This document shows positions 27,706 through 58,470 of a DNA stretch of 64,000 bases, one piece after another. The notes below the pieces were generated by a model. The model did not search any database. It had not been told where the DNA came from and worked only from the letters and a program-made list of their open reading frames with translations. A program made the translations under genes and the position numbers. Numbering within the stretch: position 1 is the first letter of the stretch; every line of letters begins with the position of its first letter. The stretch comes from Hypomesus transpacificus (lineage: Eukaryota > Chordata > Actinopteri > Osmeriformes > Osmeridae): contig NC_061068.1 of NCBI RefSeq assembly GCF_021917145.1, forward strand, positions 4,200,932-4,264,931. Direction: 5' to 3'.

Positions 27706-29499
27706 TCAGTCCCTTCTTGCTAACCGAGGCCTCTTGCCACTGACGTTACAGAGAGTGTCATTACGTGGGTAGGTGCTGGCATTCACCCTGCACAGCAGGT
27801 ACCCCTTGAGATGCTTCCGGAAGGTCTGGTCCCTCAACCCATACACGATGGGGCTGACGAAGCGTGGGATGATCTGCACGATCACGTAAGAGAAGAATCT
27901 GATCTCCAGCAGTTTGGTTGGGAAGAGATACAGCAGGCCTCCTTCCAGTGCAGAGCGCACATAGGAGATCATACACAGGAGGAGCTGCAGGCCATGCAAC
28001 AGGATGGTGTTTCTGGCCTTCCTGGCATCGCCACTGGCGGCTCGCGCTGCGAACATGATGCTTAAGTAGGTGTACAGCAGAGAGAGCCACACCAGTGCCA
28101 GGAAGACATAATGGGGGATGTACTGATTCACGCTCGTGGTCGTACTCTTGAAGACATTCTCTCGCCAGCAGAAGATCCTGGTGTTGAAGAAGCTGAGGGG
28201 TTCAGTAGCAAAGAGGGTGAAGACTTCTTTTAGGATAGGGATAGCACTCACCGCCCACATCAGACCGATAACCATGTAGGTGCGTTGGACAGTGCAGATC
28301 TGGGCGTGGCGCAGCGGGTTGCAGACGGCAATGTAGCGCTCGATAGCCATGGTGGCTAGATTGACAGGTGTGTTGAAAGTTGTGAAGATCAAGAAGACCA
28401 ACAGCAAGCAGCAGAAGGACACATTCAGGGTATACACGATGTAGCTGAGGACATGGAGGAGGCATGCCAAGGTCAGCTGTAGCATGTCGTTAACCACCAG
28501 GTGGATGAACAGGATGTAGCGAGGGTTGGTGTTGAACACCTACGGAGATAAATAAAGACATTGTGGATGTATTTGTATTAATGGAAAACCAACTGAAAAA
28601 AGGGAACTTTTAAGTGTTCACAATGTGCCTATTTTATAAAAAATATATCCACTGGTTTCCAGAGTAGGGTGGAGAAGAGCAGGGTCGGCAATGCCCCCCC
28701 AAATGGAATGCTGTGCCCCCTCAAAAAATGTTTTTGTTAAAGTATGAATAATTGGCTATAAATTAAATATCAAGATGGCTACACTTTCCAGCAGAACATG
28801 CAGGTCTGCTCTTATTTTGACTCTCATGCTTTGTAAACGCGTGCTCCTCTTGTGAAAAAAATGCCCCCCCCCATTGAATTAGTTCTGGAGCCGAGTCTGG
28901 AGAAGAAACATCAGAAATCTTAAAAAATTACATCAAAAGCTGATGATGACACAGATGTAAAGTTGTGAAAATTGAATTAATTATGGATATTAGTTCAAGT
29001 ACAGTTTACTTTATACATAGACAAAAATTAACACATCTTATCCCTAAAACAGTCACATCTGAAAACCTACAGTACTTATACTTTATTCTTCAGTTCTTAA
29101 ATTTACAAATATAAAATGTTTTAGCTCTTTCCCGTTGTTCTGTTCAGTTGTATTCCTCCAAAAAACATCAAACGTTTTTTTTCACTAGTAATATTGCAAA
29201 CTACCAACTTAAACCAGATGTATTTTCTCAAATGGGAAAAGTAAAAAAAAAAATGTTAAGTTACTCAACACATTTTTTTATAAAAATATGTAAAGATGCC
29301 TAAAAGATGGAGAAAGGGAAATAAAGGATGTATCTGTTTGTACCTGATGTTTGGTAAAGGTGTGGACCAACATGCTGTTGATGTAGTTGATGGAGAGACA
29401 GAGAGCCACCACAATGATGTTCTTGGTCAAGGCTGTTTCAAATGTGTCACGCTGCATCAGGACAACAGTAAAGTTGCTTTCCCCTGCTGAGAAGTTCAT
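27706..29499 (-). CDS. OR4: odorant receptor (131-2-like), array unit 1
   Basis: Exon 1 29499-29344 (52 codons: NFS and NFT sequons, TM1, ending FTKHQ) joins in phase 0 to exon 2 28539-27706, giving 329 residues. Receptor landmarks are MAIERYIAVCNPLRH after TM3, the ECL2 cysteine in TRIFC and SPIVYGLRDQ after TM7. Mosaic class: ECL2 type 1 (PILKEVFTL, ENVFKSTT) with TM6-ECL3 type a (ALEGGLLYLFP). The TM3 segment LLLVFLI with VCNPL is shared only with OR12. The C-terminus differs from its paralogs after NDTL (CNVSGKRPRLARRD), from a small indel near the stop. Intron 1 carries the hAT-like insertion at 28680. Acceptor for the 5'UTR intron is just before 29508. Confidence 0.93.
28680..28899 (-). 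mobile_element. hAT-like insertion in OR4 intron 1
   Basis: 220 bp. Ends CAGGGTCGGC and (reverse) CAGACTCGGC. Flanks GAGAAGAG (28672-28679) and GAGAAGAA (28900-28907) form an 8-bp target duplication with one mismatch. Paralogous introns of OR6-OR9 and others read GTGCAGAAGAGACATCAG across the same point, the empty site. Orientation is arbitrary. Confidence 0.88.
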
Positions 29500-30620
29500 C
29501 TCTTTTACCTGATTTTCTAGATAACCAAAGAAAAGGTAAATATCATTTTTTTCTCAGTTGCTTGACCACACTTGTCCAAGCTGAATCTTTTTCCTCAACA
29601 ATGAACACACACAATTAATAGTTACACAATTGTATTTTATACTGACTACAACCATAAACATGCCTTAACATAGTCATTCTCATGTATGTGTCTGTGTCGT
29701 TTCTTGATATACTTTATGTTGTAAAATATATAACAATAAAAAATGAGTAGCTATATCAAAGTCTGTTCTTTCTTTCATAACATGATTCAATGAAAGATTA
29801 TCAGTGCAGAAAAAGTTTTCCTCAAGAATATGAATGTCCAGAAGCCAAAGCCTTTTCTTATTTTTCCTCATACAAGGTCAAGGTACCATCACAGACAATA
29901 CAAATAAAGCACCAATAGATCACTTTAAAACCAATAAAAGGTTCACATTACTGTTATAGGAATAATTTGTATCAGCTCAACTAAGAAATGTGTTTAGTAT
30001 TTGCAGCCTGTGTGTCACAGCAATGGGAAAAGGACTTCCTTTTTCGCCCCTAAAAAACAATCAGTTTTGCTTTTTATATTATGATGTAGATTGAGTAGAT
30101 TCTAGTTATTTAAACAGTTTAGAAAAAGGCTGTGGGACCTGGGATGAATGCAAGGTTATATACAATGCTTGTCTTGGGAATAATAAAATGAAGGAATGAA
30201 GAAATTGCACATTAGGCTTATCTTCATCAAAATGCATGTGTTAATAAGGCTTATTCCATTAATGTAGCACATCGAATAGAACAGACGGCTCTTTTGCCCC
30301 AAAAAGAAACCAGAACACTTTTTATCTAATAGTAAAAGTACCAGAATGCTCTTCCGAACCATTCTAACCTAAGTCAAGCAGTGGTTGAATAAAAACATGT
30401 TAAGATAAGGATAGCCAGTAAATCCTTAAACTTGTCGTATTGTTGCATTAATGTTAACTTGATTATCTTTGAAAATAGTAAAACAATGGTTTGTCTGTTT
30501 ATGTTTTTTATAGTGTTTGCATTTTACAATACATTAATTTACAATGCTAACAGTGCCATGCATTTGCAGTATATGAAGCAGTTGCATGTGATGCAGCTTG
30601 AATAGTGTGGCTGTACTCAC

Positions 30621-30670
30621 CTCCAGTGAAGTTCTTCAATGTGACGGTCTGGTAACCTTTCTTTCAGTCT
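30621..30670 (-). other. OR4 non-coding 5' exon
   Basis: Conserved block ending CTTCACTGGAG/GTGAGTAC on the minus strand (donor after 30621). The transcription start is unknown, so the right limit is approximate. An AGCCCTGGG motif and a GA/GT microsatellite lie just upstream in most units. Confidence 0.65.
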
Positions 30671-31435
30671 TAAGTTTATGTATTTAGATTAAAGCCCTGG
30701 GTTTTTATTGTTTTTGAGTGCAAGAAACAAGGAGAGAGAGAGAGTGTGCATCGTAATATTTGAGAATAAAGCCATGTTATGCTCATTGTATTAGCAAAAA
30801 CAACAGCATTTTATTGGCTAGAATGAGAACCCTTCCCCAAGGTCAAGAAATGTTCACACTGGGATACAAACAACCAGGGATTTTATGCAGCTAACATAAC
30901 TGTCAATCTGCATGATTATATTTAACACTTTATCTTCAATAGTAAGTGAGTTGATCTCTATGCATTTACTTTATGTATGGTTTACTGTACTTAATGACCT
31001 GCCTCAATTAATCACATTTATCACCACCACCTCAGAAAACACACAAATATTTTAATGTGTCTAAAACAGCAACATACAATCAAGAGAATGACACTTGAGA
31101 ATTTTTCTGATGGCATACATATGCTGGTTGCACATATGTGATTGTTACATAACGTGGTTCAAACTCTGTTTGTCTAACCAGACCAAAGTACTGTAAGCTG
31201 AGAACCAGGCTAATTCTCAGATAACATTAAAGGCACCCTACAGGGAATGATTTTGTATTGTGAGTGGGCTGAACAGTGGTCAGGTAAGTTTCATCAGGTT
31301 GCTGCAATTTGTAAAATACTAACTACGGTGACTACAAAAATAAATTGTTTCTAAAATAGGTTGTAAGATTTCTGAATTGAAAGAAACTGTGACTGAACCC
31401 TCACCTCTGCAGGTCAGCAGTAAGCACCCTCTCAC

Positions 31436-32260
31436 TTACAGAGGCCTTTTCTCTCTGCCACTGATCTTAAAGAGAGTGTCATTATTTGGGTAGGTGCTGG
31501 CATTCACCCTGCACAGCAGGTACCCCTTGAGATGCTTCCGGAAAGTCTGGTCCCTCAAACCGTACACGATGGGGCTGATGAAGCGTGGGATGATCTGCAC
31601 GATCACGTAAGAGGCAAATCTGATGTTAAGCAGTTTGGTTGGAAAGATCTGGAGCAGTCCAGACTGCAGAATGGAGTGCACGTAGGTAAACATACACAGG
31701 AGGAGCTGCAGGCCATGCAACAGGATAGTGTTTCTGGCCTTCCTGGCATCGCCACTGGCGGCTCGTGCGGCGAACATGATGCTTAAGTAGGTGTAAAGCA
31801 GAGTGAGCCACACCAGTGCCAAGTAAACGTATTGGGGGATGTACTGGTTCTCGCTCATGGTCGTACTCTTGAAGACATTCTCTCGCTGGCAGAAGATCCT
31901 GGTGTTGAAAAAGCTGAGGGGTTCAGTAGCAAAGAGGGTGAAGACTTCTTTTAGGATAGGGATAGCACTCACCGCCCACATCAGACCGATGACCATGTAG
32001 GTGCGTCGGACGGTGCAGATCTGGGCGTGGCGCAGCGGGATGCAGACGGCGATGTAGCGCTCTATAGCCATGGTGGCTAGATTGAAAGGTGTGTTGAAGG
32101 TTGTGAAGATTGCGGTGACCAATAGGAAGCAGCAGAAGGACACATTCAGGGTGAACACGATGTAGCTGAGGACATGGAGGAGGCATGCCAAGGTCAGCTG
32201 TAGCATGTCGTTAACCACCAGGTGGATGAACAGGATGTAGCGAGGGTTGGTGTTGAACAC
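31436..32260 (-). CDS. OR5: odorant receptor (131-2-like), array unit 2, exon 2
   Basis: The main exon of OR5; exon 1 (52 codons) is listed at 33086-33241. Product 326 residues. In full-protein numbering MAIERY is at about 116-121, the ECL2 cysteine at about 176 and SPIVYG at about 281-286. Class: ECL2 type 1 (KEVFTLFATEPLSFFNTRIFC) with TM6-ECL3 type c (ILQSGLLQIFPTKLLNIRF). It is the only gene joining type 1 to type c. The tail reads NASTYPNNDTLFKISG, with the NND that goes with type c. Acceptor TAG/GTGTTCAAC is at 32260. No disabling change seen. Confidence 0.94.
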   Translation of the reverse strand: MFNTNPRYILFIHLVVNDMLQLTLACLLHVLSYIVFTLNVSFCCFLLVTAIFTTFNTPFNLATMAIERYIAVCIPLRHAQICTVRRTYMVIGLMWAVSAIPILKEVFTLFATEPLSFFNTRIFCQRENVFKSTTMSENQYIPQYVYLALVWLTLLYTYLSIMFAARAASGDARKARNTILLHGLQLLLCMFTYVHSILQSGLLQIFPTKLLNIRFASYVIVQIIPRFISPIVYGLRDQTFRKHLKGYLLCRVNASTYPNNDTLFKISGREKRPL

Positions 32261-32408
32261 CTACAGAGATAAATAAACACGTTATAGATCTATTTGTATT
32301 AATGGAAAACCACCTGAAAAAAGGGAACTTTCATGTCTTCACAATGTGCCTATTTTATAACAAATAGTTCTATATATCCACTGCTTTCCAGAGTAGGGTG
32401 GAGAAAAG

Positions 32409-32641
32409 CAGGGTCGGCAACGCCCCCCCAAACGGAATGCTGTGCCCCCTCAGAAATTATTGTGTTAAAGTATAAATAAGAAATACTGGCATTGGCTATA
32501 AATTAAATATCAAGATGGCTACACTTTCCTGCAGAATATGCAGGTCTGCTCTTAATTTGACTCTCATACATGCTTTGTAAACATGTGACGCCCTTGTGAA
32601 AAAAATGTCCCCCCATTGAATTCATTCTGGAGCCAAGTCTG
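32409..32641 (-). mobile_element. hAT-like insertion in OR5 intron 1
   Basis: 233 bp, same ends and same target point as the OR4 copy (flanks GAGAAAAG and GAGAAGAA). Homologous position shows it was copied with the unit, not inserted afresh. Confidence 0.88.
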
Positions 32642-33085
32642 GAGAAGAAACATCAGAAATCTTTATAATTGCATCAAAAGCTGATGATGACACAGATGTA
32701 CAGTTGTGAAAAATGAAATTAATTGGAGATATTAGTTCAAGTATAGTTTACTTTATATGTGGACAACAATTAACACATCTTATCCCTGAAACAGTCACAT
32801 CTGAAAACCTACAGTACTTATACTTTATTCTTCAGTTCTTAAATGTACACATATAAAATGTTTAAGCTCTTTCCTGTTTGTCTGTTCAGTTATATTCCTC
32901 CAAGAAACATGAACATGTTTTTTCACTAGTAACTTTGCAAACTAGTAACTAAAACCAGATGTATTTTCTCAACCGGGAAAAGTCACGAAATATGTTAAGT
33001 CGCGTAAAATAATTTTTTGAATAGAAAATAGGTAAAGATGCCTAAAAGATGGAAAAATTGAAGTAAAGGATGTATCTGTTTGTAC

Positions 33086-33241
33086 CTGATGTTTTGTAAA
33101 GGTGTAGACCAGTGTGCTGTTGATGTAGTTGATGGAGAGACAGAGAGCCACCACGATGATGTGCTTGGTCAAGGCTGTTTCAAATGTGTCACGCTCCATC
33201 AGGACAACAGTAAAGTTGCTTTCCCCTGTTGAGAAGTTCAT
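33086..33241 (-). CDS. OR5 exon 1
   Basis: ATG at 33241 to HQ/GT donor at 33086: MNFSTGESNFTVVLMERDTF, TM1 and VYTFTKHQ. It differs from most paralogs by E for Q at residue 16, H for N at 27 and VYTF for VHTF. Joins exon 2 at 32260 in phase 0. Confidence 0.93.
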
Positions 33242-34338
33242 CTCTTTGACCTGATTTTCTAGATAACCAGAAAAAAGGTAAATATTATTTTTTTTCTCAG
33301 TTGCTTGACCACATTTGTCCAAGCTGAATCTTTTTCCTCAACAATGAATGCACACAATTAATGGTTACACAATTGTATTATATACTGACTACAACCATAA
33401 ACATGGCCTAACATAGTCAAACCCCATGTCTGTGCAGTTTGTTGATATATTGTTGTAAAATATATACAAATACAAAATGAGTGGCTATATCACAGTCTGT
33501 TCTTTCTTTCTTTACATGATTAAATGAAAGATGATCAGCTCAGAAAAAGTGTTCCTCAAGAGTATGAAAGTCCAAAAACAAAAGCCTTTTTTTATTTTTC
33601 CCCATACAAAATCCAAGTACAATCAGCTGTACAAATAAAGCACCAATAGATCACTTCAAAACCAGAAAAGGTTCACATTACTTTGATGGGAATGATTTGT
33701 CTCAGCTCAACTAAGAAATGTATTAAGTATTTGCAGTGCTTGTGTCACAGCAATGGGAAAAGGACAGCTTATTTTGCCCTTAAAAAACTAACAGTTTTGC
33801 TTGTTAGATTATGATGTAGATCAAGTAGATTCTAGTTATTTAAGCAGTTGATAAAATTGCTGTAGGACCTGGGATAACGGCAATGCTTGTCTTGGGATTA
33901 AATGAATGCATGAATGGAGAAATTGCACATTAGGCTATGTTCATCAAAATGCATGTGTTAAAAAAGGCGTGTTCCATTGAAGTAGCCTATCAAATAGAAC
34001 AGACAGCTCTTTTGCCCCAAAAAGGAACCAGAATACATTTAACCTCAAATTAAAAGTGCCAGAATGCTCTTCCGGACCATTCTAACTCAAGTCAAGCAGT
34101 TTTTCAATAAAAACATGTTGAGATAAGGATAGCCAGTAAATCCTTAAACTTGTAGTATTGTCAAATTAATGTTAACTTGATTATCTTTGAAGATAGTAAA
34201 ACAATGGTTTGTCTGTTTAAGTTGTTTATAATGTATACATTTTACAATACATTCATTTACAAGGCTAAGAGTGCCATGCATTTGCAGTATATGAAGCAGT
34301 TGCATGTGATGCAGCTTGTATAGTGTGGCTGTACTCAC

Positions 34339-34390
34339 CTCCAGTGAAGTTCTACAATGTGACGGTCTGGTAACCTTTCTTTCAGTCTTA
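34339..34390 (-). other. OR5 non-coding 5' exon
   Basis: Same conserved block and GTGAGT donor (after 34339) as in OR4. Right limit approximate. Confidence 0.65.
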
Positions 34391-35166: not shown

Positions 35167-36709
35167 TTACAGAAGAATTTTCTCTCTGCCACTGATCTTA
35201 AAGAGAGTGTCATTATTTGGGTAGGTGCTGGCATTCACCCTGCACAGCAGGTACCCCTTGAGATGCTTCCGGAAGGTCTGGTCCCTCAACCCGTACACGA
35301 TGGGGCTGATGAAGCGTGGGATGATCTGCACGATCACATAAGAGGCAAATCTGATGTCAAGCAGTTTGGTTGGAAAGATCTGGAGTAGTCTTGACTGCAG
35401 AAGGGAGTGCACGTAGGTAAACGTACACAGGAGGAGCTGCAGGCCATGCAACAGGATGGTGTTTCTGGCCTTCCTGGCATCGCCACTGGCGGCTCGCGCT
35501 GCGAACATGATGCTTAAGTAGGTGTAAAGCAGAGTGAGCCACACCAGTGCCAGGAAGACGTAAAGAGAAGTATTATTCCTCTCAATTATGAATGGGTTCC
35601 GGAAGAGGTTTTCTAGATGGCAGAAAATCCTGGAGCTGAAGAAGCTGAGGGGTTCATTAGCAACTAGGATGAAAACATCTGGCAGGATAGGGAGGGCAGT
35701 CAAGACCCAGATCAGACTAATGGTGATGTAGGTGCGTTGGACGGTGCAGATCTGGGCGTGGCGCAGCGGGATGCAGACAGCGATGTAGCGCTCTATAGCC
35801 ATGGTGGCTAGATTGACAGGTGTGTTGAAGGTTGTGAAGATTGCGGTGACCAATAGGAAGCAGCAGAAGGACACATTCAGGGTGAACAGGATGTAGCTGA
35901 GGACATGGAGGAGGCATGCCAAGGTCAGCTGTAGCATGTCGTTAACCACCAGGTGGATGAACAGGATGTAGCGAGGGTTGGTTTTGAACACCTACAGAGA
36001 TAAATAAGCACGTTATGGATCTATTTGCATGAAAGGAAAACCACCTGACCAAAGGAAACTTTCAACCTTAAAGTTGTCACAATGTGCCTATTCTATAACA
36101 AATAGTTATATATAGCCACCACTTTTCAGAGTAGGGTGCAGAAGAGACATCAGAAATTTGGAAAATTACATCAAAAGCTGATTATGACACAGATGTACAG
36201 TTGTGAAAATGAAAATTCATTGTAGAAAATAGATTAAGTACGGTTTACTTTATATGTGGACCACAGTGAACACATCTTTTCCTTGAGACAGTCACATCTG
36301 AAAACCTACAGTACTTTACTTGTACTTTATTCTTCAGTTTTTAAAATTACACTTATAAAATGTTTCATTCAAGAAACTAAAAAAAAATAATACAAATTCA
36401 CAGAACTAGTGACATTGCACCCATTTAAACCAGCTGTATTTTCTCAACTGGCCGGAGAAAATTGACAAAAAATAACAAGAACTGTAAAAATTATTAAAAT
36501 GTTAAAATGCATAAAAGATGGAGAAAGGGAAGTAAAGGATGTATCTGTTTTACCTGATGTTTTGTAAAGGTGTGGACCAACATGCTGTTGATGTAGTTGA
36601 TGGAGAGACTGAGAGCCACCACGATGATGTTCTTGATCAAGGCTGTTTCAAATGTGTCACGCTGCATCAAGACAACAGTAACGTTGCTTTCCCCTGCTGA
36701 GAAGTTCAT
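35167..36709 (-). CDS. OR6: odorant receptor (131-2-like), array unit 3
   Basis: Exon 1 36709-36554 (sequons NFS and NVT; ALIKNIIVVALSLS) and exon 2 35991-35167; 326 residues. Class: ECL2 type 2 (PILPDVFILVANEPLSFFSSRIFC, IIERNNTS) with TM6-ECL3 type c (LLQSRLLQIFPTKLLDIRF). It is closest to OR9 in both modules and in flanking DNA, so the two look like recent block copies. Intron 1 (36553-35992) lacks the hAT insertion and shows the empty site at about 36130-36150. The tail ends FKISGREKILL. Motifs MAIERYIAVC and SPIVYGLRDQ intact. Confidence 0.94.
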
Positions 36710-38738: not shown

Positions 38739-39181
38739 TAGGGTTGCCAACCGTCCCAAATTGTCCGGGACATCTTGAATTATGGTTGATTTTGATTTGT
38801 CCCATCAGGGACAGCTCCAGTTCAGTATTCCAATCACATTCTCACCAGACAATAATAGGCTACTGTATACGCGCCAAAACTCACGTAAATATTGCTATGG
38901 GACACAATTGTTGCTTGTTGATGATAGTGTGTGTATAATGGCCACTGGTGAGGTGAAACTTGTAATAATTGCCTTGACTAATACTTTAAACAATACATAC
39001 AAGCAAATACCTATTAGTGGTTTGCCAAAATTAAACTGAAATGAGTAGGTTTATCATGGTATGGCTGATGAAAGCTTGCGATTGCCATTATTGTTTTTCA
39101 GCTGTTGGTGCGCGCGCATGTGCGTGTGCGCAACTGGAAGAAAGTGTCCCTCATTTGGGGTTGAAAAAGGTGGCAACCCTA
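38739..39181 (-). mobile_element. hAT-like insertion in the OR7 coding end
   Basis: 443 bp, ends TAGGGTTGCCAAC and (right) GGTGGCAACCCTA, flanked by TTACGTGG at 38731-38738 and 39182-39189 (8 bp, exact). The uninterrupted site is seen in OR10 and OR12 as CATTACGTGGGTAGG. The remainder of the old OR7 3' end survives at about 38680-38738. Confidence 0.92.
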
Positions 39182-40684
39182 TTACGTGGGTAGGTGCTGG
39201 CATTCACCCTGCACAGCAGGTACCCCTTGAGATGCTTCCGGAAGGTCTGGTCCCTCAACCCGTACACGATGGGGCTGACGAAGCGTGGGATGATCTGCAC
39301 GATCACGTAGGAGGCAAATCTGATCTCCAGCAGTTTAATTGGGAAGAGATACAGCAGGCCTCCTTCCAGTGCAGCACGCACATAGGAGATCATACACAGG
39401 AGGAGCTGCAGGCCATGCAACAGGATGGTGTTTCTGGCCTTTCTGGCATCGCCACTCGCGGCTCGCGCTGCAAACATGATGCTTAAGTAGGTGTAAAGCA
39501 GAGTGAGCCACACCAGTGCCAGGAAGATGTAAAGAGAGGTATTCTTCCTCTCAATCATGGTTGGGTACCGGAAGAGGCCTTCTGGATGGCAGAAAATCCT
39601 GGAGCTGAAGAAGCTGAGGGGTTCATTAGCAACTAGGATGAAAACATCTGGCAGGATAGGGATGGCAGTCAAGACCCAGATCAGACTAATGGTGATGTAG
39701 GTGCGTTGGACGGTGCAGATCTGGGCGTGGCGCAGCGGGATGCATACAGCGATGTAGCGCTCTATAGCCATGGTGGCTAGATTGACAGGTGTGTTGAAAG
39801 TTGTGAAGATTGCGGTGACCAATAGGAAGCAGCAGAAGGACACATTCAGGGTGAACACGATGTAGCTCAGGACATGGAGGAGGCATGCCAAGGTCAGCTG
39901 TAGAATGTCGTTAACCACCAGGTGGATGAACAGGATGTAGCGAGGGTTGGTTTTGAACATCTACAGAGATAAATAAGCATGTTATGGATCTATTTGCATT
40001 AAAGGAAAACCATCTGACCAAAGGAAACTTTCAACCTTAAAGTTGTCACAATGTGCCTATTCTATAACAAATAGTTATATATAGCCACCACTTTTCAGAG
40101 TAGGGTGCAGAAGAGACATCAGAAATTTGGAAAATTACATCAAAAGTTGATTATGACACAGATGTACAGTTGTGAAAATGAAAATTCATTGTAGAAAATA
40201 GATTAAGTACGGTTTACTTTATATGTGGACCACAGTGAACACATCTTTTCCTTGAGACAGTCACATCTGAAAACCTACAGTACTTTACTTGTACTTTATT
40301 CTTCAGTTTTTAAAATTACACTTATAAAATGTTTCATTCAAGAAACTTAAAAAAAATTATACAAATTCACAGAACTAATAACATTGCACCAATTTAAACC
40401 AGCTGTATTATCTTAACTGGCTGGAGAAGATTGATTGACAAAAAATAACAAGAACTGTAAAAAATTATAACATTTTTAAGATGCATAAAAGATGGAGAAA
40501 GGGAAATAAAGGATGTATCTGTTTGTACCTGATGTTTTGTAAAGGTGTGGACCAACATGCTGTTTATGTAGTTGATGGAGAGACAGAGAGCCACCACGAT
40601 GATGTTCTTGGTCAAGGCTGTTTCAAACGTGTCACGCTGCATCAGGACAACAGTAAAGTTGCTTTCCCCTGCTGAGAAGTTCAT
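39151..40684 (-). CDS. OR7: odorant receptor with transposon-derived C-terminus
   Basis: Exon 1 40684-40529 and exon 2 39960-39151; 321 residues. Exon 2 begins with an in-frame ATG (MFKTNPRY) where most paralogs have GTG; the TAG acceptor is kept. Class: ECL2 type 2 (HPEGLFRYPTMIERKNTS) with TM6-ECL3 type a (AALEGGLLYLFPIKLLEIRF). After NASTYPRN the reading frame runs into the inserted element, which supplies RVATFFNPK and the stop at 39151, replacing about 14 native residues. This lies beyond TM7, so the receptor body is complete. Donor of the non-coding 5' exon is after 41774. Intron 1 lacks the hAT insertion found in OR4, OR5 and OR10. Confidence 0.93.
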
Positions 40685-42656: not shown

Positions 42657-43093
42657 TAGGGTTGCCAACCGTCCCAAATTGTCCGGGACATCTTGAATTA
42701 TGGTTGATTTTGATTTGTCCCATCAGGGACAGCTCCAGTTCAGTATTCCAATCACAGCATCACCGGACAATAATAGGCTACTGTAAGCGCCCCAAAACTC
42801 ACGCAAATATTGCTATGGGACACAATTGTTGCTTGTTGGTGACAGTGTGTGTATAATGGCCACTGGTGAGGTGAAACTTGTAATAATTGCCTTGACTATT
42901 ACTTTAAACAATACATACAAGTGAATACCTATTAGTGATTTGCCAAAATTAAACTGAAATGAGTAGGTTTATCATGGTATGGCTGATGAAAGCTTGCGAT
43001 TGCCGTTATTGTTTTTCAGCTGTTGGTGCGCACGCATGTGCGCACCTGGAAGAAAGTTTCCCTCATTTGGGGTTGAGAAAGTTGGCAACCCTA
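42657..43093 (-). mobile_element. hAT-like insertion in the OR8 coding end
   Basis: 437 bp, same family, same target point and same TTACGTGG duplications (42649-42656, 43094-43101) as in OR7. The shared site shows that OR7 and OR8 descend from one interrupted gene. Confidence 0.92.
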
Positions 43094-44596
43094 TTACGTG
43101 GGTAGGTGCTGGCATTCACCCTGCACAGCAGGTACCCCTTGAGATGCTTCCGGAAGGTCTGGTCCCTCAACCCGTACACGATGGGGCTGACGAAGCGTGG
43201 GATGATCTGCACGATCACGTAGGAGGCAAATCTGATCTCCAGCAGTTTAATTGGGAAGAGATACAGCAGGCCTCCTTCCAGTGCAGCACGCACATAAGAG
43301 ATCATACACAGGAGGAGCTGCAGGCCATGCAACAGGATGGTGTTTCTGGCCTTTCTGGCATCGCCTCTCGCGGCTCGAGCTGCGAACATGATGCTTAAGT
43401 AGGTGTAAAGCAGAGTGAGCCACACCAGTGCCAGGAAGACGTAAAGAGAGGTATTCTTCCTCTCAATCATGGATGGGTACCGGAAGAGGCCTTCTGGATG
43501 GCAGAAAATCCTGGAGCTGAAGAAGCTGAGGGGTTCATTAGCAACTAGGATGAAAACATCTGGCAGGATAGGGATGGCAGTCAAGACCCAGATTAGACTA
43601 ATTGTGATGTAGGTGCGTTGGACGGTGCAGATCTGGGCGTGGCGCAGCGGGATGCATACAGCGATGTAGCGCTCTATAGCCATGGTGGCTAGATTGACAG
43701 GTGTGTTGAAAGTTGTGAAGATTGCGGTGACCAATAGGAAGCAGCAGAAGGACACATTCAGGGTGAACACGATGTAGCTCAGGACATGGAGGAGGCAGGC
43801 CAAGGTCAGCTGTAGCATGTCGTTAACCACCAGGTGGATGAACAGGATGTAGCGAGGGTTGGTGTTGAACACCTACGGAGATAAATGAGCATGTTATGGA
43901 TCTATTTGCATGAATGGAAAACCACCTGACCAAAGGAAACTTTCAACCTTAAAGTTGTCACAGTGTGCCTATTCTATAACAAATACTTCTATAAGGCCAC
44001 TGCTTTCCAGAGTAGGGTGCAGGAGAGACATCAGAAATGTGAAAGCTTACATCAAAAGCTAATGATGACACAGATGTACAGTTGTGAAAATGGAAATTCA
44101 TTGTAGATATTAGTTCAAGTAAAGTTTTCTTCATATGTGGACCACATTGAACACATCTTTTCCTTGAGACAGTCTTATCTGAAAACCTACAGTACTTTAC
44201 AATTACTTGATTCTTCAGTTCTTAACATTACACCTATAAAATGTTTCATTCAAGAAACATTAAAAAATGATACAAAATTCACAGAACTAGTAACATTACA
44301 CCAATTTAAACAAGCTGTATTTTCTCAACTGGCAGGAGAAAATGTATTGACAAAAAATAACAAAATCTGTAAAAAATTATAAAAATGTTAAAATGCATGA
44401 AAGATGGAGAAAGGGAAATAAAGGATGTATCTGTTTGTACCTGATGTTTGGTAAAGGTGTGGACCAGCGTGCTGTTTATGTAGTTGATGGAGAGACAGAG
44501 AGCCACCACGATGATGTTCTTGGTCAAGGCTGTTTCAAACGTGTCACGCTGCATCAGGACAACAGTAAAGTTGCTTTCCCCTGCTGAGAAGTTCAT
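43063..44596 (-). CDS. OR8: odorant receptor with transposon-derived C-terminus
   Basis: Exon 1 44596-44441 and exon 2 43872-43063; 321 residues. Class: ECL2 type 2 (HPEGLFRYPSMIERKNTS) with TM6-ECL3 type a. It is the sister of OR7: both end in transposon sequence, here RVANFLNPK with the stop at 43063. It differs by GTG at the start of exon 2 (VFNTNPRY) and AARGDARK for AASGDARK in the intracellular loop before TM6. MAIERYIAVC and SPIVYGLRDQ are intact. The frame has stayed open through the element-derived codons in both copies. Confidence 0.93.
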
Positions 44597-46518: not shown

Positions 46519-48061
46519 TTACAGAAGCCTTTTCTCTCTGCCACTCATCTTAAAGAGAGTGTCATTATTTGGGTAGGTGCTGGCATTCACCCTGCACAGC
46601 AGATAACCGATGAGATGCTTCCGGAAGGTCTGGTCCCTCAACCCGTACACGATGGGGCTGATGAAGCGTGGGATGATCTGCACGATCACATAAGAGGCAA
46701 ATCTGATGTCAAGCAGTTTGGTTGGAAAGATCTGGAGTAGTCTTGACTGCAGAAGGGAGTGCACGTAGGTTAACATACACAGGAGGAGCTGCAGGCCATG
46801 CAACAGGATGGTGTTTCTGGCCTTCCTGGCATCGCCACTCGCGGCTCGCGCTGCAAACATGATGCTTAAGTAGGTGTAAAGCAGAGTGAGCCACACCAGT
46901 GCCAGGAAGACGTGAAGAGAAGCATTATTCCTCTCAATCATGAATGGGTACCGGAAGAGGTTTTCTAGATGGCAGAAAATCCTGGAGCTGAAGAAGCTGA
47001 TGGGTTCATTAGCAACTAGGATGAAAACATCTGGCAGGATAGGGAGGGCAGTCAAGACCCAGATCAGACTAATGGTGATGTAGGTGCGTTGGACGGTGCA
47101 GATCTGGGCGTGGCGCAGCGGGATGCAGACAGCGATGTAGCGCTCTATAGCCATGGTGGCTAGATTGACAGGTGTGTTGAAGGTTGTGAAGATTGCGGTG
47201 ACCAATAGGAAGCAGCAGAAGGACACATTCAGGGTGAACGGGATGTAGCTGAGGACATGGAGGAGGCATGCCAAGGTCAGCTGTAGAATGTCGTTAACCA
47301 CCAGGTGGATGAACAGGATGTAGCGAGGGTTGGTTTTGAACATCTACAGAGATAAATAAGCATGTTATGGATCTATTTGCATTAAAGGAAAACCATCTGA
47401 CCAAAGGAAACTTTCAACCTTAAAGTTGTCACAATGTGCCTATTCTATAACAAATAGTTATATATAGCCACCACTTTTCAGAGTAGGGTGCAGAAGAGAC
47501 ATCAGAAATTTGGAAAATTACATCAAAAGTTGATTATGACACAGATGTACAGTTGTGAAAATGAAAATTCATTGTAGAAAATAGATTAAGTACGGTTTAC
47601 TTTATATGTGGACCACAGTGAACACATCTTTTCCTTGAGACAGTCACATCTGAAAACCTACAGTACTTTACTTGTACTTTATTCTTCAGTTTTTAAAATT
47701 ACACTTATAAAATGTTTCATTCAAGAAACTAAAAAAAAATAATACAAATTCACAGAACTAGTGACATTGCACCCATTTAAACCAGCTGTATTTTCTCAAC
47801 TGGCCGGAGAAAATTGACAAAAAATAACAAGAACTGTAAAAATTATTAAAATGTTAAAATGCATAAAAGATGGAGAAAGGGAAGTAAAGGATGTATCTGT
47901 TTTACCTGATGTTTTGTAAAGGTGTGGACCAACATGCTGTTGATGTAGTTGATGGAGAGACAGAGAGCCACCACAATGATGTTCTTGGTCAAGGCTGTTT
48001 CAAACGTGTCACGCTCCTTCAGGACAACAGTAAAGTTGCTTTCTCCTGCTGAGAAGTTCAT
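46519..48061 (-). CDS. OR9: odorant receptor (131-2-like), array unit 6
   Basis: Exon 1 48061-47906 (TVVLKERDTF, a charge change from LMQRD) and exon 2 47343-46519; 326 residues. Class: ECL2 type 2 (HLENLFRYPFMIERNNAS) with TM6-ECL3 type c (LLQSRLLQIFPTKLLDIRF). Near copy of OR6, and the non-coding DNA on both sides matches that around OR6. Exon 2 starts with ATG like OR7. The tail has HLIGYLLC for HLKGYLLC and ends FKMSGREKRLL. Intron 1 shows the empty hAT site. No disabling change seen. Confidence 0.94.
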
Positions 48062-49736: not shown

Positions 49737-51540
49737 TTACAGAGGCCTTTTCTCTCTGCCACTGATCTTAAAGAGAGTGTCATTACGTGGGTAGGTGCTG
49801 GCATTCACCCTGCACAGCAGGTACCCCTTGAGATGCTTCCGGAAGGTCTGGTCCCTCAACCCGTACACGATGGGGCTGACGAAGCGTGGGATGATCTGCA
49901 CGATCACGTAAGTGGCAAATCTGATCTCCAGCAGTTTAGTTGGGAAGAGATACAGCAGGCCTACTTCCACTGGAACACGCACATAGGAGATCATACACAG
50001 GAGGAGCTGCAGGCCATGCAACAGGATGGTGTTTCTGGCCTTCCTGGCATCGCCACTGGCGGCTCGTGCGGCGAACATGATGCTTAAGTAGGTGTAAAGC
50101 AGAGTGAGCCACACCAGTGCCAGGTAGACGTAATGGGGGATGTACTGGTTCTCGCTCATGGTGGTACTCTTGAAGACATTCTCTCGCAGGCAGAAGATCC
50201 TGGTGTTTAAGAAGCTGAGTGGTTCAGTAGTAAGCAGGGTGAAGACTTCTTTTAGGATAGGGATAGCACTCACCGCCCACATCAGACCGATGACCATGTA
50301 GGTGCGTCGGACGGTGCAGATCTGGGCGTGGTGCAGCGGGATGCATACAGCGAAATAGCGCTCTATAGCCATGGTGGCTAGATTGACAGGTGTGTTGAAG
50401 GTTGTGAAGATAGCGGTGACCAATAGGAAGCAGCAGAAGGACACATTCAGGGTGAACACGATGTAGCTCAGGACATGGAGGAGGCAGGCCAAGGTCAGCT
50501 GTAGCATGTCGTTAACCACCAGGTGGATGAACAGGATGTAGCGAGGGTTGGTGTTGAACACCTACGGAGATAAATAATGTGGATGTATTTGTATTAATGG
50601 AAAACCACCTGAAAAAAGGGAACTTTCAAGTCTTCACAATGTGCCTATTTTATAACAAATTGTTCAATATATCCACTGCTTTCCAGAGTAGGGTGGAGAA
50701 GAGCAGGGTCGGCAATGCCCCCCCAAATGGAATGCTGTGCCCCCTCAAAAAATTATTTTCTTAAAGTATGAATAAGAAATACTGGCATTGGCTATAAATT
50801 AAATATCAAGATAACTACACTTTCCAGCAGAATATGCAGGTCTGCTATTATTATGGCTCTCATACATGCTTTGTAAACGCGTGACGCCCTTGTGAAAAAA
50901 ATGCCCCCCCCCATTGAATTCATTCTGGAGCCGAGTCTGGAGAAGAAACATCAGACATTTTTTTAATTGCATGAAAAGCCGATGATGACACAGATGTACA
51001 GTTGTGAAAATGGAAATTAATTGTAGATATTAGTTCAAGTACAGTTTACTTTATATGTGGACAACAATTAACACATCTTATCCCTGAAACAGTCACATCT
51101 GAAAACCTACAGTACTTATACTTTATTCTTCAGTTCTTAAATTTACACATATACAATGTTTAAGCTCTTTCCTGTTGTTCTGCTCAGTTGTATTCCTCCA
51201 AGAAACATCAAATGTTTTTTTCACTAGTAACATTGCAAACTAATAACTAAAACCAGATGTATTTTCTCAACCTGGAAAAGTCACGGAATATGTTAAGTCA
51301 CTTAACATATTTTTTTTTAATTAAAAATAGGTAAAGATGCCTAAAAGATGGAGAAATTGAAGTACATTATGTATCTGTTTGTACCTGATGTTTTGTAAAG
51401 GTGTGGACCAACATGCTGTTGATGTAGTTGATGGAGAGACAGAGAGCCACCACGATGATGTTCTTGGTCAAGGCTGTTTCAAACGTGTCACGCTGCATCA
51501 GGACAACAGTAAAGTTGCTTTCCCCTGTTGAGAAGTTCAT
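49737..51540 (-). CDS. OR10: odorant receptor (131-2-like), array unit 7
   Basis: Exon 1 51540-51385 and exon 2 50561-49737; 326 residues. Class: ECL2 type 1 (KEVFTLLTTEPLSFLNTRIFC, ENVFKSTT) with TM6-ECL3 type b (VPVEVGLLYLFPTKLLEIRF). It is the only gene joining type 1 to type b. The TM3 end reads MAIERYFAVCIPLHH, with F for I and H for R against the other eight. Intron 1 carries the hAT-like insertion at 50704. The gap between its stop and the next 5' exon (49129) is the shortest in the array, about 0.55 kb, because a stretch present elsewhere upstream of the 5' exon is missing near 49260. Confidence 0.94.
50704..50939 (-). mobile_element. hAT-like insertion in OR10 intron 1
   Basis: 236 bp, same ends and target point as in OR4 and OR5; flanks GAGAAGAG (50696-50703) and GAGAAGAA (from 50940). 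Confidence 0.88.
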
Positions 51541-52634: not shown

Positions 52635-52686
52635 CTCCAGTGAAGTTCTTCAATGTGACGGTCTGGTAACCTTTCTTTCAGTCTTA
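52635..52686 (-). other. OR10 non-coding 5' exon
   Basis: Conserved 5' exon block with GTGAGT donor after 52635. Right limit approximate. Confidence 0.65.
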
Positions 52687-53431
52687 AGTTTATGTATTTT
52701 GATTAGAGCCCTGGGATTGATTGTTTTTTGAGTGCAAGAAACAGGAAGAGAGAGAGAGAGTGTGTGCATCATAATATTTGAGAATTAAGCCATGTTAAGC
52801 TTATTGTATAAGCAATAACAACAGCATTTTATTGGCCCGAATGAGAACCCTTCCCCAAGGTCAACAAATGTTCACACTGGGATACAAACAAACAGGGATT
52901 TTATGCATTTTTAACACTTTATCTTCAATAGTAAGTGAGTTGATCTGTATGAGTTAACTTTAAGTATGGTTTACTGTACTTAATGACCTGCCTCAATTAA
53001 TCACATTTATCACCTCCACCTCAGAAAATGAGCAAAAATATTTTATTGTGTCTAAAACAGCAACATACAATCAAGAGAATGACACTTGACAATTTTTCTG
53101 ATGGCATTCATATACTGGTTGCACATATGTGATTGTTACACAACGTGGTTCAAACTCGGTTTGTCTAACCAAACCAAACCAAAGCACTGTAAGCTTAGAT
53201 CCAGGCTAATTCTCAGGTAACATTAAAAGCACCCTACAGGGAATGATTTTGTATTGTGTGTGGGCTGAAAAGGGGTCAAGAAAGTTTCATCAGGTTACTG
53301 CAATTTCTAAATTCAAATTACGGTGACAAAAAATAAAAATAAAAATCGAAAATTGCTTGTAAGATTTCTGAACTGAAAGAAACTGTGACTGAACCCTCAC
53401 TTCTGCAGGTCGGCAGTAAGCACCTTCTCAC

Positions 53432-54980
53432 TTACAGAGACCTTTTCTCTCCGCCACTGATCTTAAAGAGATTGTCATTATGTGGGTAGGTGCTGGCATT
53501 CACCCTGCACAGCAGATAACCCTTGAGATGCTTCCGGAAGGTCTGGTCCCTCATCCCGTACACGATGGGGCTGATGAAGCGTGGGATGATCTGTAGGATC
53601 ACGTAGGAGAAGAATCTGATCTCCAGCAGTTTAATTGGGAAGAGATACAGCAGGCCTCCTTCCAGTGCAGCACGCACATAGGAGATCATACACAGGAGGA
53701 GCTGCAGGCCATGCAACAGGATGGTGTTTCTGGCCTTTCTGGCATCGCCACTGGCAGCTCGCGCTGCGAACATGATGCTTAAGTAGGTGTACAGCAGAGT
53801 GAGCCACACCAGTGCCAGGAAGACATAATGGGAAGAGTTTTTCCTCTCAATCATGGATGGGTACCGGAAGAGGCCTTCTCGATTGCAGAAGATCCTGGAG
53901 CTGAAGAAGCTGAGGGGTTCATTAGCAACTAGGATGAAAACATCTGGTAGGATAGGGAGGGCAGTCAAGACCCAGATCAGACTAATGGTGATGTACGTGC
54001 GTTGGACGGTGCAGATCTGGGTGTGGCGCAAAGGGATGCAGACAGCGATGTAGCGTTCGATAGCCATGGTGGCCAGATTGACAGGTGTGTTGAAGCTTGT
54101 GAAGATTGTGATGACCAACAGCAAGCAGCAGAAGGACACATTCAGGGTGAACACGATGTAGCTGAGGACATAGAGGAGGCATGCCATGGTCAGCTGTAGC
54201 ATGTCGTTAACCACCAGGTGGATGAACAGGATGTAGCGAGGGTTGGTGTTGAACACCTACAGAGATAAATAAGCACGTTATGGATCTGTTTGTATTAATG
54301 GAATACCACCTGAAAAAAGGAAACTTTCAACCTTAAAGTTTTCACAATGTGGCTCTTATATAACAAATACTTCTATATACCCACTGCTTTCCAGAGTAGG
54401 GTGCAGGAGAGACATCAGAAATGTGAAAGCTTACATCAAAAGCTGATGATGACACAGATGTACTGTTGTGAAAATGGAAATTCATTGTAGATATTAGTTC
54501 AAGAAAAAGTTTACTTCATATGTGGACCACATTGAACACATCTTTCTTTGAGAGAGTGTCATCTGAAAACCTACAGTACTTTACTTGTACTTGATTCTTC
54601 AGTTTTTAACATTACATTTATAAAATCTTTAATTCAAGAAACCTTAAAAAAATAATACAAAATTCCCAGAACTAGTAACATTGCACCAATTTAAACAAGC
54701 TGTATTTTCTCAACTGGCAGGAGAAAATTGATTGACAAAATATAACAAGGTCAGTAAAAAATTATAAAAATGTTAAAATGCATAAAAGATGGAGAAAGGG
54801 AAGTAAAGGATGTATCTGTTTTACCTCATGTTTTGTAAAGGTGTGGACCAGCGTGCTGTTGATGTAGTTGATGGAGAGACAGAGAGCCACCACAATGATG
54901 TTCTTGGTCAAGGCTGTTTCAAACGTGTCACGCTGCATCAGGACAACAGTAAAGTTGCTTTCCCCTGTTGAGAAGTTCAT
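53432..54980 (-). CDS. OR11: odorant receptor (131-2-like), array unit 8
   Basis: Exon 1 54980-54825 and exon 2 54256-53432; 326 residues. Exon 1 ends FTKHE instead of FTKHQ because the last exonic codon is GAG before the donor. Class: ECL2 type 2 (NREGLFRYPSMIERKNSS) with TM6-ECL3 type a (AALEGGLLYLFPIKLLEIRFFSY). TM3 has its own version, LLLVITIFTSFNTP. The post-TM7 motif reads YGMRDQTFRK. The upstream 5' exon donor has changed from GTGAGT to GTGACT, so splicing of that exon may be weaker here. Coding frame intact. Confidence 0.93.
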
Positions 54981-56090
54981 CTCTTTTAACTGATTTTCTA
55001 GATAACCGGAAAAAAGGTAAAGATAATTTTTTCTCAGTTTCTTGACCACATTTGTCCAAGCTGAATCTTTTTCCTCAACAATGAACACACACAATTAATA
55101 GTTACACAATTGTATTATATACTGACTACAACCATAAACATGCCCTAACATAGTCAAACCCATGTGTGTGTCTGTGCCGTTTGTTGATATACTGTAGGTT
55201 GTAAATTATATACAAATAAAAAATGAGTTGCTATATCACATTTTGTTCTTTCTTTCTTTACATGATTCCATGAAAGATGGTCAGCACAGAAAAAGTGTTC
55301 CTCAAGAGTATGAAAGTCCAAAAACAAAAGCCTTTCATATTTTTTCCTTTACAAATTCCAAGTACAATCAGCTGTACAAATAAAGCACCAATAGATCACT
55401 TCAAAACCAGAAAAGGTTCACATTACTTTGATGGGAATGATTTGTATCAGCTCAGCTAAGAAATGTGTTAAGTATTTGCAGTGCGTGTGTCACAGCAATG
55501 GGAAAAGGACAGCCTTTTTTCCCCGTAAAAAAACAAACTGCTTAGCTTGTTAGATTATGATGCAGATCGAGTATATTTTAGTTATTTAAGCAGTTGAGAA
55601 GATTGTTGTAGGACATGGGCTGAATGCAATGTTTGTTTTGGGATTAAATAAATGCATGAATGGAGAAATTGCAGATCAGTCTATGTGCAAGTGCAAGTGT
55701 TGTCAAAATGCAAGTGTTAATAAGGCTTGTTCCATTTAAGTAGCCTATCGAATAGAACAGACGGCTCTTTTGCCCCAAAAAGGAACCAGAATACTTTTAA
55801 CCTCAAATTAAAAGGACCAGAACGCTCTTCCGGACCATTCTAAGCCAAGTCATGCAGTGGTTAAATAAAAACATGTTAAGATAAGGATAGCCAGTAAATC
55901 CTTAAACTTGTAGTTTTGTTACATTAATGTTAACTTGGTTATCTTTGAAGATAGTAAAACAATGGTTTAAACATTGTTTATAATTCATACGTTTTACAAT
56001 ACATTTATTTACAAAGCTAAGAGTGCCATGCATTTGCAGTATATGAAGCAGTTGCATGTGATGCAGCTTGTATAGTGTGGCTGTAGTCAC

Positions 56091-56142
56091 CTCCAGTGAA
56101 GTTCTTCAATGTGACGGTCTGGTAACCTTTCTTTCAGTCTTA
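56091..56142 (-). other. OR11 non-coding 5' exon, altered donor
   Basis: Same block as in the other units but the donor after 56091 reads GTGACT. The +5 G that the other eight keep is lost. Confidence 0.6.
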
Positions 56143-56901
56143 AGTTTATGAATTTTGATTAGAACCCTGGGATTGGTTGTTTTTTGAGTGCAAGAAACAG
56201 GGAGAGAGACAGTGTGCATCATAATATTTGAGAATGAAGCCATGTTAGGCTCATTGTATGAGCAAAAACAAGAGCATTTGATTGGCTAGAATGATAACCC
56301 TTCCCCAAGGTCAAGAAATGTTCACACTGGGATACAAACAAGATTTTATGCATTTTATGCAGCTAACATAACTGTCTGCATGATTATATTTAACATTTTA
56401 TCTTCAATAGTAAGTGAGTTGATCTGTATGCATTTACTTTATGTATGGTTTACTGTACTCAATGACCTGCCTCAATTTATCAAATATATCACCACCACCT
56501 CAGAAAACACACAAATATTTTATTGTGTCTAAAGAAGCAATATAAAATGAAGAGAATGACACTTAAAAATTTTTATGATGGCAGTCATATGCTGGTTTCA
56601 CATATGTGATTGTTACACAACGTGGTTCAAACTTGGTTTGTCTAACCAGACCAAAGCACTGTAAGCTGAGAACCAGGCTAATTCTCAGGTAACATTAAAG
56701 GCATCCTACAAAGAATGATTTTGTATTGTGTGTGGGCTGAACAGTGGTCAGGTAAGTTTCATCAGGTTGCTGCAATTTGTAAATACAAACTACGGTGACT
56801 AAAATAAAATGTGTTTCTAAAATTGCTTGTAAGATTTCTGAACTGAAAGAAACTGTGACTGAACCATCACCTCTGCAGGTCAGCAGTAAGAGCCCTCTCA
56901 C

Positions 56902-58470
56902 TTACAGAGGCCTTTTCTTTCTGCTACTGATCTTAAAGAGAGTGTCATTACGTGGGTAGGTGCTGGCATTCACCCTGCACAGCAGGTACCCCTTGAGATG
57001 CTTCCGGAAGGTCTGGTCCCTCAACCCGTACACGATGGGGCTGACGAAGCGTGGGATGATGTGCACGATCACGTAAGAGGCAAATCTGATCTCCAGCAGC
57101 TTGGTTGGGAAGAGATACAGCAGGCCTACTTCCACTGGAACGCGCACATAGGAGATCATACACAGGAGGAGCTGCAGGCCATGCAACAGGATGGTGTTTC
57201 TGGCCTTCCTGGCATTGCCACTGGCAGCTCGCGCTGCGAACATGATGCTTAAGTAGGTGTAAAGCAGAGAAAGCCACATCAGTGACAGGAAGACGTAATA
57301 GGAGATATTATTCCTCTCAATCATGGATGGGTACCGAAAGAAGCCTTCTGGATTGCAGAAAATTCTGGAGCTGAAGAAGCTGAGGGGTTCGGTAACAAGG
57401 ACGATGGCAACATCTGATAGGATAGGGATGGCAGTAAAGACCCAGATCAGACTAATGGCGATATAAGTGCGTCTGATTGTGCAGATCTGGGCGTGGCGCA
57501 GCGGGTTGCAGACGGCAATGTAGCGCTCGATAGCCATGGTGGCCAGATTGACAGGTGTGTTGAAGCTTGTGATAATCAAGAAGACCAACAGCAAGCAGCA
57601 GAGGGACGTATTCAGGGTATACACAATGTAGCTGAGGACATGGAGGAGGCATGCCAAGGTCAGCTGTAGCATGTCGTTAACCACCAGGTGGATGAACAGG
57701 ATGTAGCGAGGGTTGGTGTTGAACACCTACAAAGATATATAAGCACTTAATGGATCTATTTGCCTAAAAGGAAAACCGTGTGACAAAAGGAAACTTTCAA
57801 CATTAAAATCTTCATATTGTGCCTAATCTATAACAAATTGTTCTATATAGCCACCACTTTCCAGATTAAGAAGGAGAAGAAACATCAGAATTTTTGAAAA
57901 TTACATCAAAAGCCGATGATTACACAGAAGTAAAGTTAGTTGTGAAAATTTAAATGTATTGTAGATATTATTTCAAGTACAGTTTACTTTATATGTGGAC
58001 CACAGAGAACACATTTTATGCCCGAAACAGTCACATCTGAAAACCTACAGTACTTTATTCTTCAGTTCTTAAAATGTCACACATAAAATGTTAAGATCTT
58101 TCCTGTTTTTCTGTTGTTCATAAAAAAATAAAAAATAAAAGTAAAATCTGAATTAGTAATATTGCACAAACTTAAACCAGCGATATTATCCCAACTGGAA
58201 GGAGTTACAAAAGATTGACAAAACATTACAAGAAAAGTAGAAAAAGATATACAGTATATATGTAAACATATCTACAAGTGTGAGAAAGGAAAATAAAGGA
58301 TGTATCTGTTTTACCTGATGTTTTGTAAAGGTGTGGACCAACATGCTGTTGATGTAGTTGATGGAGAGACAGAGAGCCACCACAATGATGTTCTTGGTCA
58401 AGGCTGTTTCAAACGTGTCACGCTGCATCAGGACAACCGTAAAGTTGCTTTCCCCTGCTGAGAAGTTCAT
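56902..58470 (-). CDS. OR12: odorant receptor (131-2-like), array unit 9
   Basis: Exon 1 58470-58315 and exon 2 57726-56902; 326 residues. Outermost and somewhat divergent member. TM3 LLLVFLIITSFNTP with VCNPLRH is like OR4. ECL2 is a type 2 variant (PILSDVAIVLVTEPLSFFSSRIFCNPEGFFRYP). TM6-ECL3 is type b (VPVEVGLLYLFP) as in OR10, but VIVHIIPRF replaces VIVQIIPRF. It thus shares different segments with OR4, with the type 2 group and with OR10. The exon 2 start reads SLCC for SFCC. Coding frame intact, sequons as in the other units. Confidence 0.94.

Follow-up and report, generated by a model that had tools for sequence, protein, structure and literature searches.

Sharon et al. (1999) reportedly described olfactory receptor mosaics produced by gene conversion, and a review cites them for it. 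That review places such mosaic receptors in clustered genes (PMC1995454). Similar patterns are found elsewhere: in the human red and green opsin genes, which undergo gene conversion, divergence peaks in exon 5 (PMC3924837); the GOT1 paralogues of Tigriopus copepods are a mosaic of high and low divergence in which new combinations arise through infrequent transfers of divergent stretches (PMC3728101); and conversion has been detected with GENECONV in subfamily 9 of the catfish OlfC receptors (PMC6588630). The papers cited here by accession are represented by excerpts of their text. Here we analyse a tandem array of nine receptor genes, OR4 to OR12, on the minus strand of a 64,000-nucleotide stretch of the Hypomesus transpacificus genome (the window, C9:4200932-4264931 of the 437 Mb assembly), in which two coding segments are far more divergent than the rest of the gene and occur in different combinations in different copies.

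Results

Six combinations of two receptor cassettes

An earlier sequence-only reading of the window proposed that exon 2 of these genes joins one of two types of transmembrane segment 4 (TM4) and extracellular loop 2 (ECL2) to one of three classes of TM6-ECL3, and that all six pairings occur. The exon 2 translations and their alignment, which is gap-free over its first 807 columns, bear this out. TM4-ECL2 is of type 1 (PILKEVFTL..NTRIFC..ENVFKSTT) in OR4, OR5 and OR10 and of type 2 in OR6-OR9, OR11 and OR12; the sole deviation is OR12, a divergent type 2 that has PILSDVAIV where the type 2 motif is PILPDVFIL. TM6-ECL3 is of class a in OR4, OR7, OR8 and OR11, class b in OR10 and OR12, and class c in OR5, OR6 and OR9, so that 6/6 pairings are present among the nine genes. 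If each class arose once and no exchange took place, no more than 2+3-1 = 4 combinations could exist.

Of 250 residue columns, 87 are variable. The proportion is 38/57 in ECL2 and 15/27 in TM6-ECL3, as against 8/46 in the intervening TM5-TM6 stretch, which had correctly been called near-invariant. TM3 (exon 2 codons 41-55) is a third mosaic segment, present in three versions (Table 1).

Exchange between copies at several breakpoints

The copies have exchanged sequence, with several breakpoints. We used 780 alignment columns (the last 58, with the tails, were dropped) containing 196 variable and 127 informative sites; the pairwise homoplasy index (PHI)-type, GENECONV-like, segment-model and site-compatibility tests were our own implementations, and trees and approximately unbiased (AU) tests were run in IQ-TREE. 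The PHI-type statistic was 0.169, compared with a mean of 0.434 under permutation, and 0/1000 permutations were as low. Incompatible site pairs made up 81.2% of those between ECL2 and ECL3, 6.8% within ECL2 and 2.2% within ECL3. Sites that are silent in all nine genes, six of them informative in each cassette, show the same thing: 28/36 ECL2 x ECL3 pairs are incompatible, and within the cassettes 0/15 and 0/15.

Separate trees before and after the TM5-TM6 stretch, suggested in the sequence-only reading as a check, reject each other, and a single tree fails. Data from the last 240 columns reject the tree built on the first 432 (difference in log-likelihood 81.0, AU p = 4e-6) and the first 432 reject the tree from the last 240 (167.2, p = 1.9e-6); likewise, the ECL3 tree is rejected by the ECL2 data (202.7, p = 1e-7) and the ECL2 tree by the ECL3 data (78.6, p = 0.003). 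The 5' flank rejects 9/9 other segment trees, indicating yet another tree there; for the exon 1 region the outcome is less clear-cut, with 4/9 other trees retained at p above 0.05. Segments that mutually reject one another's trees are what a mosaic built by interlocus exchange displays.

How many breakpoints there are is less simple than first proposed. The corrected Akaike information criterion (AICc) is 5245.3 for one tree and 4807.2 for six segments, with breakpoints at exon 2 nucleotides 78, 234, 429, 546 and 624, placed on a 39-base grid. Exchange as such stands, whereas a single switch in TM5-TM6 between two swapped cassettes gives way, in the model with the lowest AICc, to five exon 2 breakpoints. 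For the 112 biallelic sites of exon 2 the Hudson-Kaplan minimum is 23 events, and for the 317 sites of the whole unit it is 89, both figures being inflated by recurrent mutation.

GENECONV-like permutations on the unit (809 polymorphic gap-free sites) revealed a shared run at global p below 0.05 in 9/36 gene pairs. Examples are two mainly intronic runs (OR6-OR9, 166 sites; OR7-OR9, 135 sites), one of 80 sites in the 5' flank of OR5 and OR7 and one of 21 sites in the TM6-ECL3 of OR10 and OR12 (p = 0.0005). OR7 changes its closest relative twice: upstream it is OR8 or OR5, between roughly the exon 1 end and early exon 2 it is OR9 (partly tied with OR6), and from about exon 2 nucleotide 125 onward it is OR8 again. 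The tract thus switches on both sides within one unit, as gene conversion would produce, and we infer that conversion did most of the exchange.

Two islands of deep synonymous divergence

The two cassettes are deeper in synonymous divergence (dS) than their flanks. Between type 1 and type 2 genes, dS in seven consecutive exon 2 segments is 0.05, 0.15, 0.19, 0.685 (TM4-ECL2), 0.14, 0.39 (TM6-ECL3) and 0.08; between c and non-c genes it is 0.05, 0.14, 0.17, 0.32, 0.12, 1.0 (TM6-ECL3) and 0.09. A comparison of synonymous divergence inside and outside the conserved stretch, also suggested beforehand, accordingly sets 0.685 and 1.0 in the cassettes against 0.05-0.19 across the five other segments. 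Distances to OR3, the nearest outgroup, are 0.7-2.0 and have no cassette profile (TM2 ~0.7; TM3, TM4 and TM7 ~1.0-1.2; ECL2 1.4-2.0; ECL3 1.2-1.4; TM5-6 1.6-1.9).

Degenerate third positions, compared where both codons encode one residue, gave the same result. In 8/8 pairs of genes with different classes at both cassettes they have changed more in the islands (Fisher p 3.4e-7 to 0.002; the pairs share genes and so are not independent), whereas against OR3 an island excess was found in 0/9 genes (p 0.2 to 1). A contrast that is present within the array and absent against OR3 implies young flanks and old cassettes, most naturally read as homogenisation of the flanks. The OR3 comparisons do not support low mutation or constraint in the flanks as the cause of the contrast, with the caveat that TM2 third positions are the lowest against OR3 too (0.217 versus 0.32-0.56 elsewhere).

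The ECL2 pattern (OR4, OR5 and OR10 versus the rest) recurs through the intron (alignment columns ~2809-3595), which includes a stretch of ~260 columns confined to the three type 1 genes. Early exon 2 is partitioned differently, with OR4 joining OR12 and partly OR11. As the ECL2 class goes with the intron, it is ECL3 and TM3 that assort against that backbone. ECL2 and the intron would then keep the mark of an old lineage, exon 1 and early exon 2 would have been overwritten, and the ECL3 classes would assort against the mark. To this extent, two swapped cassettes are an incomplete picture: homogenisation of the remaining gene is the larger process, the ECL2 class tracks the intron, and TM3 is mosaic as well.

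Variable residues and the predicted pocket

Pocket positions were derived by sequence alignment to solved receptors. TM3 varies at 3.31, 3.32, 3.34 and 3.36, counted from ERY and by alignment to the A2A receptor, whose numbering we presume. For TM6, KARNTILLH was aligned to KALNTCVSH of consOR51, and the labels 6.40, 6.48, 6.55 and 6.59 were taken from published excerpts on OR52cs, with an ungapped count past 6.54. On this count classes a, b and c differ at 6.49, 6.50 and 6.53-6.59, and position 6.59 is Arg in OR6 and OR9. According to the same excerpts, OR52cs has its ECL2 within the pocket, residues 6.55 and 6.59 are directed towards the odorant, and the Arg at 6.59 binds a carboxylate. Among the varying sites there thus appear to be positions that belong to the pocket lining of solved receptors, and shuffling of cassettes may, as the sequence-only reading proposed, give rise to new ligand specificities.

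Receptor family

The genes encode class A G protein-coupled receptors, judging by two of the nine whose exon 2 products pass the Pfam 7tm_1 cut-off of 30.5 bits (OR5, 48.5 bits; OR4, 51.5 bits). With exon 2 only, and hence without TM1, OR4 did not reach the olfactory receptor cut-off of Pfam 7tm_4 (26.4 versus 27 bits) and OR5 had no 7tm_4 match at E 0.01. The best matches among PDB sequences are consOR51 for OR4, somatostatin receptor 2 for OR5 and neurotensin receptor 1 for the profile. We take OR4-OR12 to be of the OR131 kind, which presumably belongs to Family H. Members of Family H are possibly not bona fide odorant receptors, and their role is uncertain according to the authors (PMC1325023). 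The odorant receptor label for the divergent teleost family of OR4-OR12 is likewise uncertain. Genes of cichlid OR family W consist of two coding exons separated, at about codon 50 in the first inner loop, by a phase 0 intron (PMC4122780); the array genes resemble them in having two coding exons and a phase 0 intron, here after codon 52 in 9/9 genes. The likeness is one of gene build, by description, and the text of that paper does not use the term gene conversion.

Cousins of the array

A protein search of the assembly returned 33 matches at E 1e-10 among the 141 of 236 candidates that were scored: nine at 77-100%, all in the array; OR1-OR3 of the window, in pieces (44-62%); a single gene on contig C18 (46%); and the remainder at 27-38%. 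No donor outside the array was seen among these 33. OR3 is nearer to type 1 than to type 2 (proportion of nonsynonymous differences, pN, 0.379 and 0.433) and nearer to b and a than to c (0.377, 0.423 and 0.488), both with low tree support.

OR1, OR2 and OR3 (window 16010-16956, 18363-19305 and 21259-22214) are the nearest cousins. Each seemingly has an extra intron at a different site (in TM2, before TM3 and in ECL2), and OR1 additionally has a frame break. The third intracellular loop (ICL3) of all nine array genes is without three residues that are present in OR1, OR2, OR3 and L010. Among more distant genes, the L013 and L015 proteins, from contigs C17 and C5, are 100% identical, reflecting either a recent duplication or unmerged haplotypes. 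L018 equals L024 in TM2-TM3 and L013 in TM6-ECL3, and so looks like a similar mosaic in another array.

Layout of the array

All nine units, 3.2-4.0 kb long, point in the same direction, and exon 2 of OR4-OR12 spans window positions 27706-57726. In 9/9 genes exon 1 comprises 52 codons (TM1) and is followed by GTA, and exon 2 (~270 codons) begins after TAG; its frame is open at the positions in Table 1 in 9/9 genes.

OR7 (window 38739-39181) and OR8 (42657-43093) have in common a transposon-like insertion of 443 and 437 bp, respectively, in the C-terminal coding part. The element has the ends TAGGGTTGCC...GGCAACCCTA and 8 bp flanking repeats CCACGTAA, and it supplies a new C-terminal tail, the former tail lying beyond it. 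Part of it matches 45 places in the assembly. We take it to be a non-autonomous element of the hAT type. Elsewhere in the window, minus-strand reading frames at 10335-13517, judged by their translations, presumably belong to a voltage-gated potassium channel gene.

Table 1. Exons, cassettes and mosaic segments of the nine array genes. ECL2 cassettes are exon 2 codons 88-144 and TM6-ECL3 cassettes exon 2 codons 191-217 in every gene.
Feature	Window position	Strand	Remark
OR4 exon 1	29344..29499	-	codons 1-52, TM1; GT donor next
OR4 exon 2	27706..28539	-	type 1, a
OR5 exon 1	33086..33241	-	
OR5 exon 2	31436..32260	-	type 1, c
OR6 exon 1	36554..36709	-	
OR6 exon 2	35167..35991	-	type 2, c
OR7 exon 1	40529..40684	-	
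OR7 exon 2	39151..39960	-	type 2, a
OR8 exon 1	44441..44596	-	
OR8 exon 2	43063..43872	-	type 2, a
OR9 exon 1	47906..48061	-	
OR9 exon 2	46519..47343	-	type 2, c
OR10 exon 1	51385..51540	-	
OR10 exon 2	49737..50561	-	type 1, b
OR11 exon 1	54825..54980	-	
OR11 exon 2	53432..54256	-	type 2, a
OR12 exon 1	58315..58470	-	
OR12 exon 2	56902..57726	-	divergent type 2, b
OR4 ECL2 cassette	28108..28278	-	type 1
OR5 ECL2 cassette	31829..31999	-	type 1
OR6 ECL2 cassette	35560..35730	-	type 2
OR7 ECL2 cassette	39529..39699	-	type 2
OR8 ECL2 cassette	43441..43611	-	type 2
OR9 ECL2 cassette	46912..47082	-	type 2
OR10 ECL2 cassette	50130..50300	-	type 1
OR11 ECL2 cassette	53825..53995	-	type 2
OR12 ECL2 cassette	57295..57465	-	divergent type 2
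OR4 TM6-ECL3 cassette	27889..27969	-	a
OR5 TM6-ECL3 cassette	31610..31690	-	c
OR6 TM6-ECL3 cassette	35341..35421	-	c
OR7 TM6-ECL3 cassette	39310..39390	-	a
OR8 TM6-ECL3 cassette	43222..43302	-	a
OR9 TM6-ECL3 cassette	46693..46773	-	c
OR10 TM6-ECL3 cassette	49911..49991	-	b
OR11 TM6-ECL3 cassette	53606..53686	-	a
OR12 TM6-ECL3 cassette	57076..57156	-	b
OR5 TM5-ICL3-TM6 stretch	31691..31828	-	homogenised, between cassettes; exon 2 codons 145-190
OR4 TM3	28375..28419	-	VFLI
OR12 TM3	57562..57606	-	VFLI
OR11 TM3	54092..54136	-	VITI; VTAI in the remaining six genes
OR7 intron	39961..40528	-	later part OR9-like, run continues into early exon 2; unit otherwise OR8-like

Discussion

We consider it highly probable that this nine-copy, two-exon class A array is in concerted evolution, with a frame homogenised by exchange and with ECL2 and ECL3 kept as old classes that have been recombined. 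Ectopic exchange (gene conversion with or without unequal crossing-over) would keep exon 1, TM2, TM5-TM6 and TM7 nearly alike while TM4-ECL2 and TM6-ECL3 persist as old, discrete sequence classes; switching within the homogenised stretches would then put the ECL2 and ECL3 classes and the TM3 segment into different combinations. With less assurance, the islands may last because selection keeps copies with different pockets, not because diverged DNA resists conversion.

Several observations weigh against this account. The Bayesian information criterion prefers three segments with two breakpoints (234 and 507), and because the segment model also frees branch lengths, not all of the AICc gain reflects topology. 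Conversion and crossing-over are distinguished only at the OR7 tract. Synonymous divergence is not raised in TM3 (0.15 over ~9 synonymous sites, versus 0.20 adjacent), and an opsin-type peak, one of raised synonymous divergence rather than local rate, is accordingly present at ECL2 and ECL3 and absent at TM3. The low divergence of neighbouring introns expected of such a peak is not found either: the early intron, where the alignment is poor, differs by 0.31-0.57 per site between types, like the coding islands. Among the cousins the island pattern appears at p below 0.05 in 1/13 within-group pairs of the groups on C5 and C17 and in 0/3 comparisons between groups X and Y. X and Y differ at a fraction of 0.075 of TM3-4 third positions versus 0.225-0.414 in the other six segments, and TM3-4 is low against L014 as well (0.345 and 0.362); as a replication, these groups are suggestive only. 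Finally, the ratio of nonsynonymous to synonymous divergence (dN/dS) in the islands is 0.34-0.52, above that of TM3-4 and TM5-6 (0.14-0.19) and not above that of TM2 (0.54-0.73); being below 1, it does not demonstrate selection for diversity.

Why the islands have lasted is the point on which the strongest competing explanation bears. Two or three old paralogues may have been homogenised patchily and neutrally, mismatched DNA being a poor substrate for conversion; the islands would coincide with the pocket because its segments are the least constrained and the first to diverge. Indeed, ECL2 and ECL3 are the segments most changed against OR3 (36/57 and 15/27 residues), and a dN/dS below 1 together with an island in the intron fits passive persistence as well as it fits selection. 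Against this, both coding islands and TM3 fall within the pocket-lining parts of solved receptors. We give such neutral persistence somewhat less than an even chance, and selection for pocket diversity is plausible. A stronger version of the selective account is possible but doubtful: old pocket segments (TM3, ECL2 and TM6-ECL3) would form a modular receptor system, conversion maintaining a uniform scaffold around them and balancing or diversifying selection preserving the differences between them. If true, new receptors would be made by recombining proven pocket parts with folding and G protein coupling undisturbed.

Other explanations concern how the mosaic arose. Unequal crossing-over alone, in TM5-TM6 and elsewhere, could have built the units without conversion, and their common direction and long near-identical stretches suit it; it is nonetheless unlikely, since OR7 requires two switches within one unit and the alternation of homogenised exon segments with old islands is more simply explained by short tracts. 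Misjoining of near-identical units, to which tandem arrays are prone, would give chimeras that are artefacts of assembly. We attach very little probability to this, as the window is without N, the contig is 22.7 Mb long, breakpoints lie at many different places and members of a class carry private substitutions. Convergent selection that made the pockets of unrelated copies alike would account for the wealth of replacement changes in the cassettes but is rejected as having practically no chance, because silent sites carry the same conflicting partitions (silent informative sites follow the classes at 4/6 in ECL2 type 1/2 and at 4/6 in ECL3 c/rest) and the type split extends into the intron.

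The array, in concerted evolution as we propose, offers a clean natural case of a homogenised receptor frame in which segments predicted to face the pocket are deeply divergent and re-assorted among copies. Should ligand response differ between the classes, the six pairings would be natural chimeras on one frame with which the roles of ECL2 and TM6-ECL3 in specificity can be probed, and conversion would both limit and create receptor diversity.

The PMC literature searched contained no comparable cassette array, although its absence is not thereby proven. The opsins come close in that tandem receptor genes are homogenised by conversion with a divergence peak at a functional segment; unlike the opsins as excerpted (PMC3924837), the array has nine copies and two re-assorted coding peaks plus a non-coding one, and its classes are known from sequence alone. 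It differs from the olfactory receptor mosaics of the excerpted review (PMC1995454) as a two-exon teleost-type family with discrete old classes at two segments in six combinations. The same mosaic logic appears in the GOT1 excerpts (PMC3728101), where the genes are a pair that encodes an enzyme and not a receptor array of nine copies. Catfish OlfC subfamily 9 shares with it conversion between copies of fish chemoreceptor genes, but those are class C receptors, and no cassettes are described in the excerpts (PMC6588630). Conversion mosaics themselves are already known; the present array is set apart by its two re-assorting coding peaks in nine copies.

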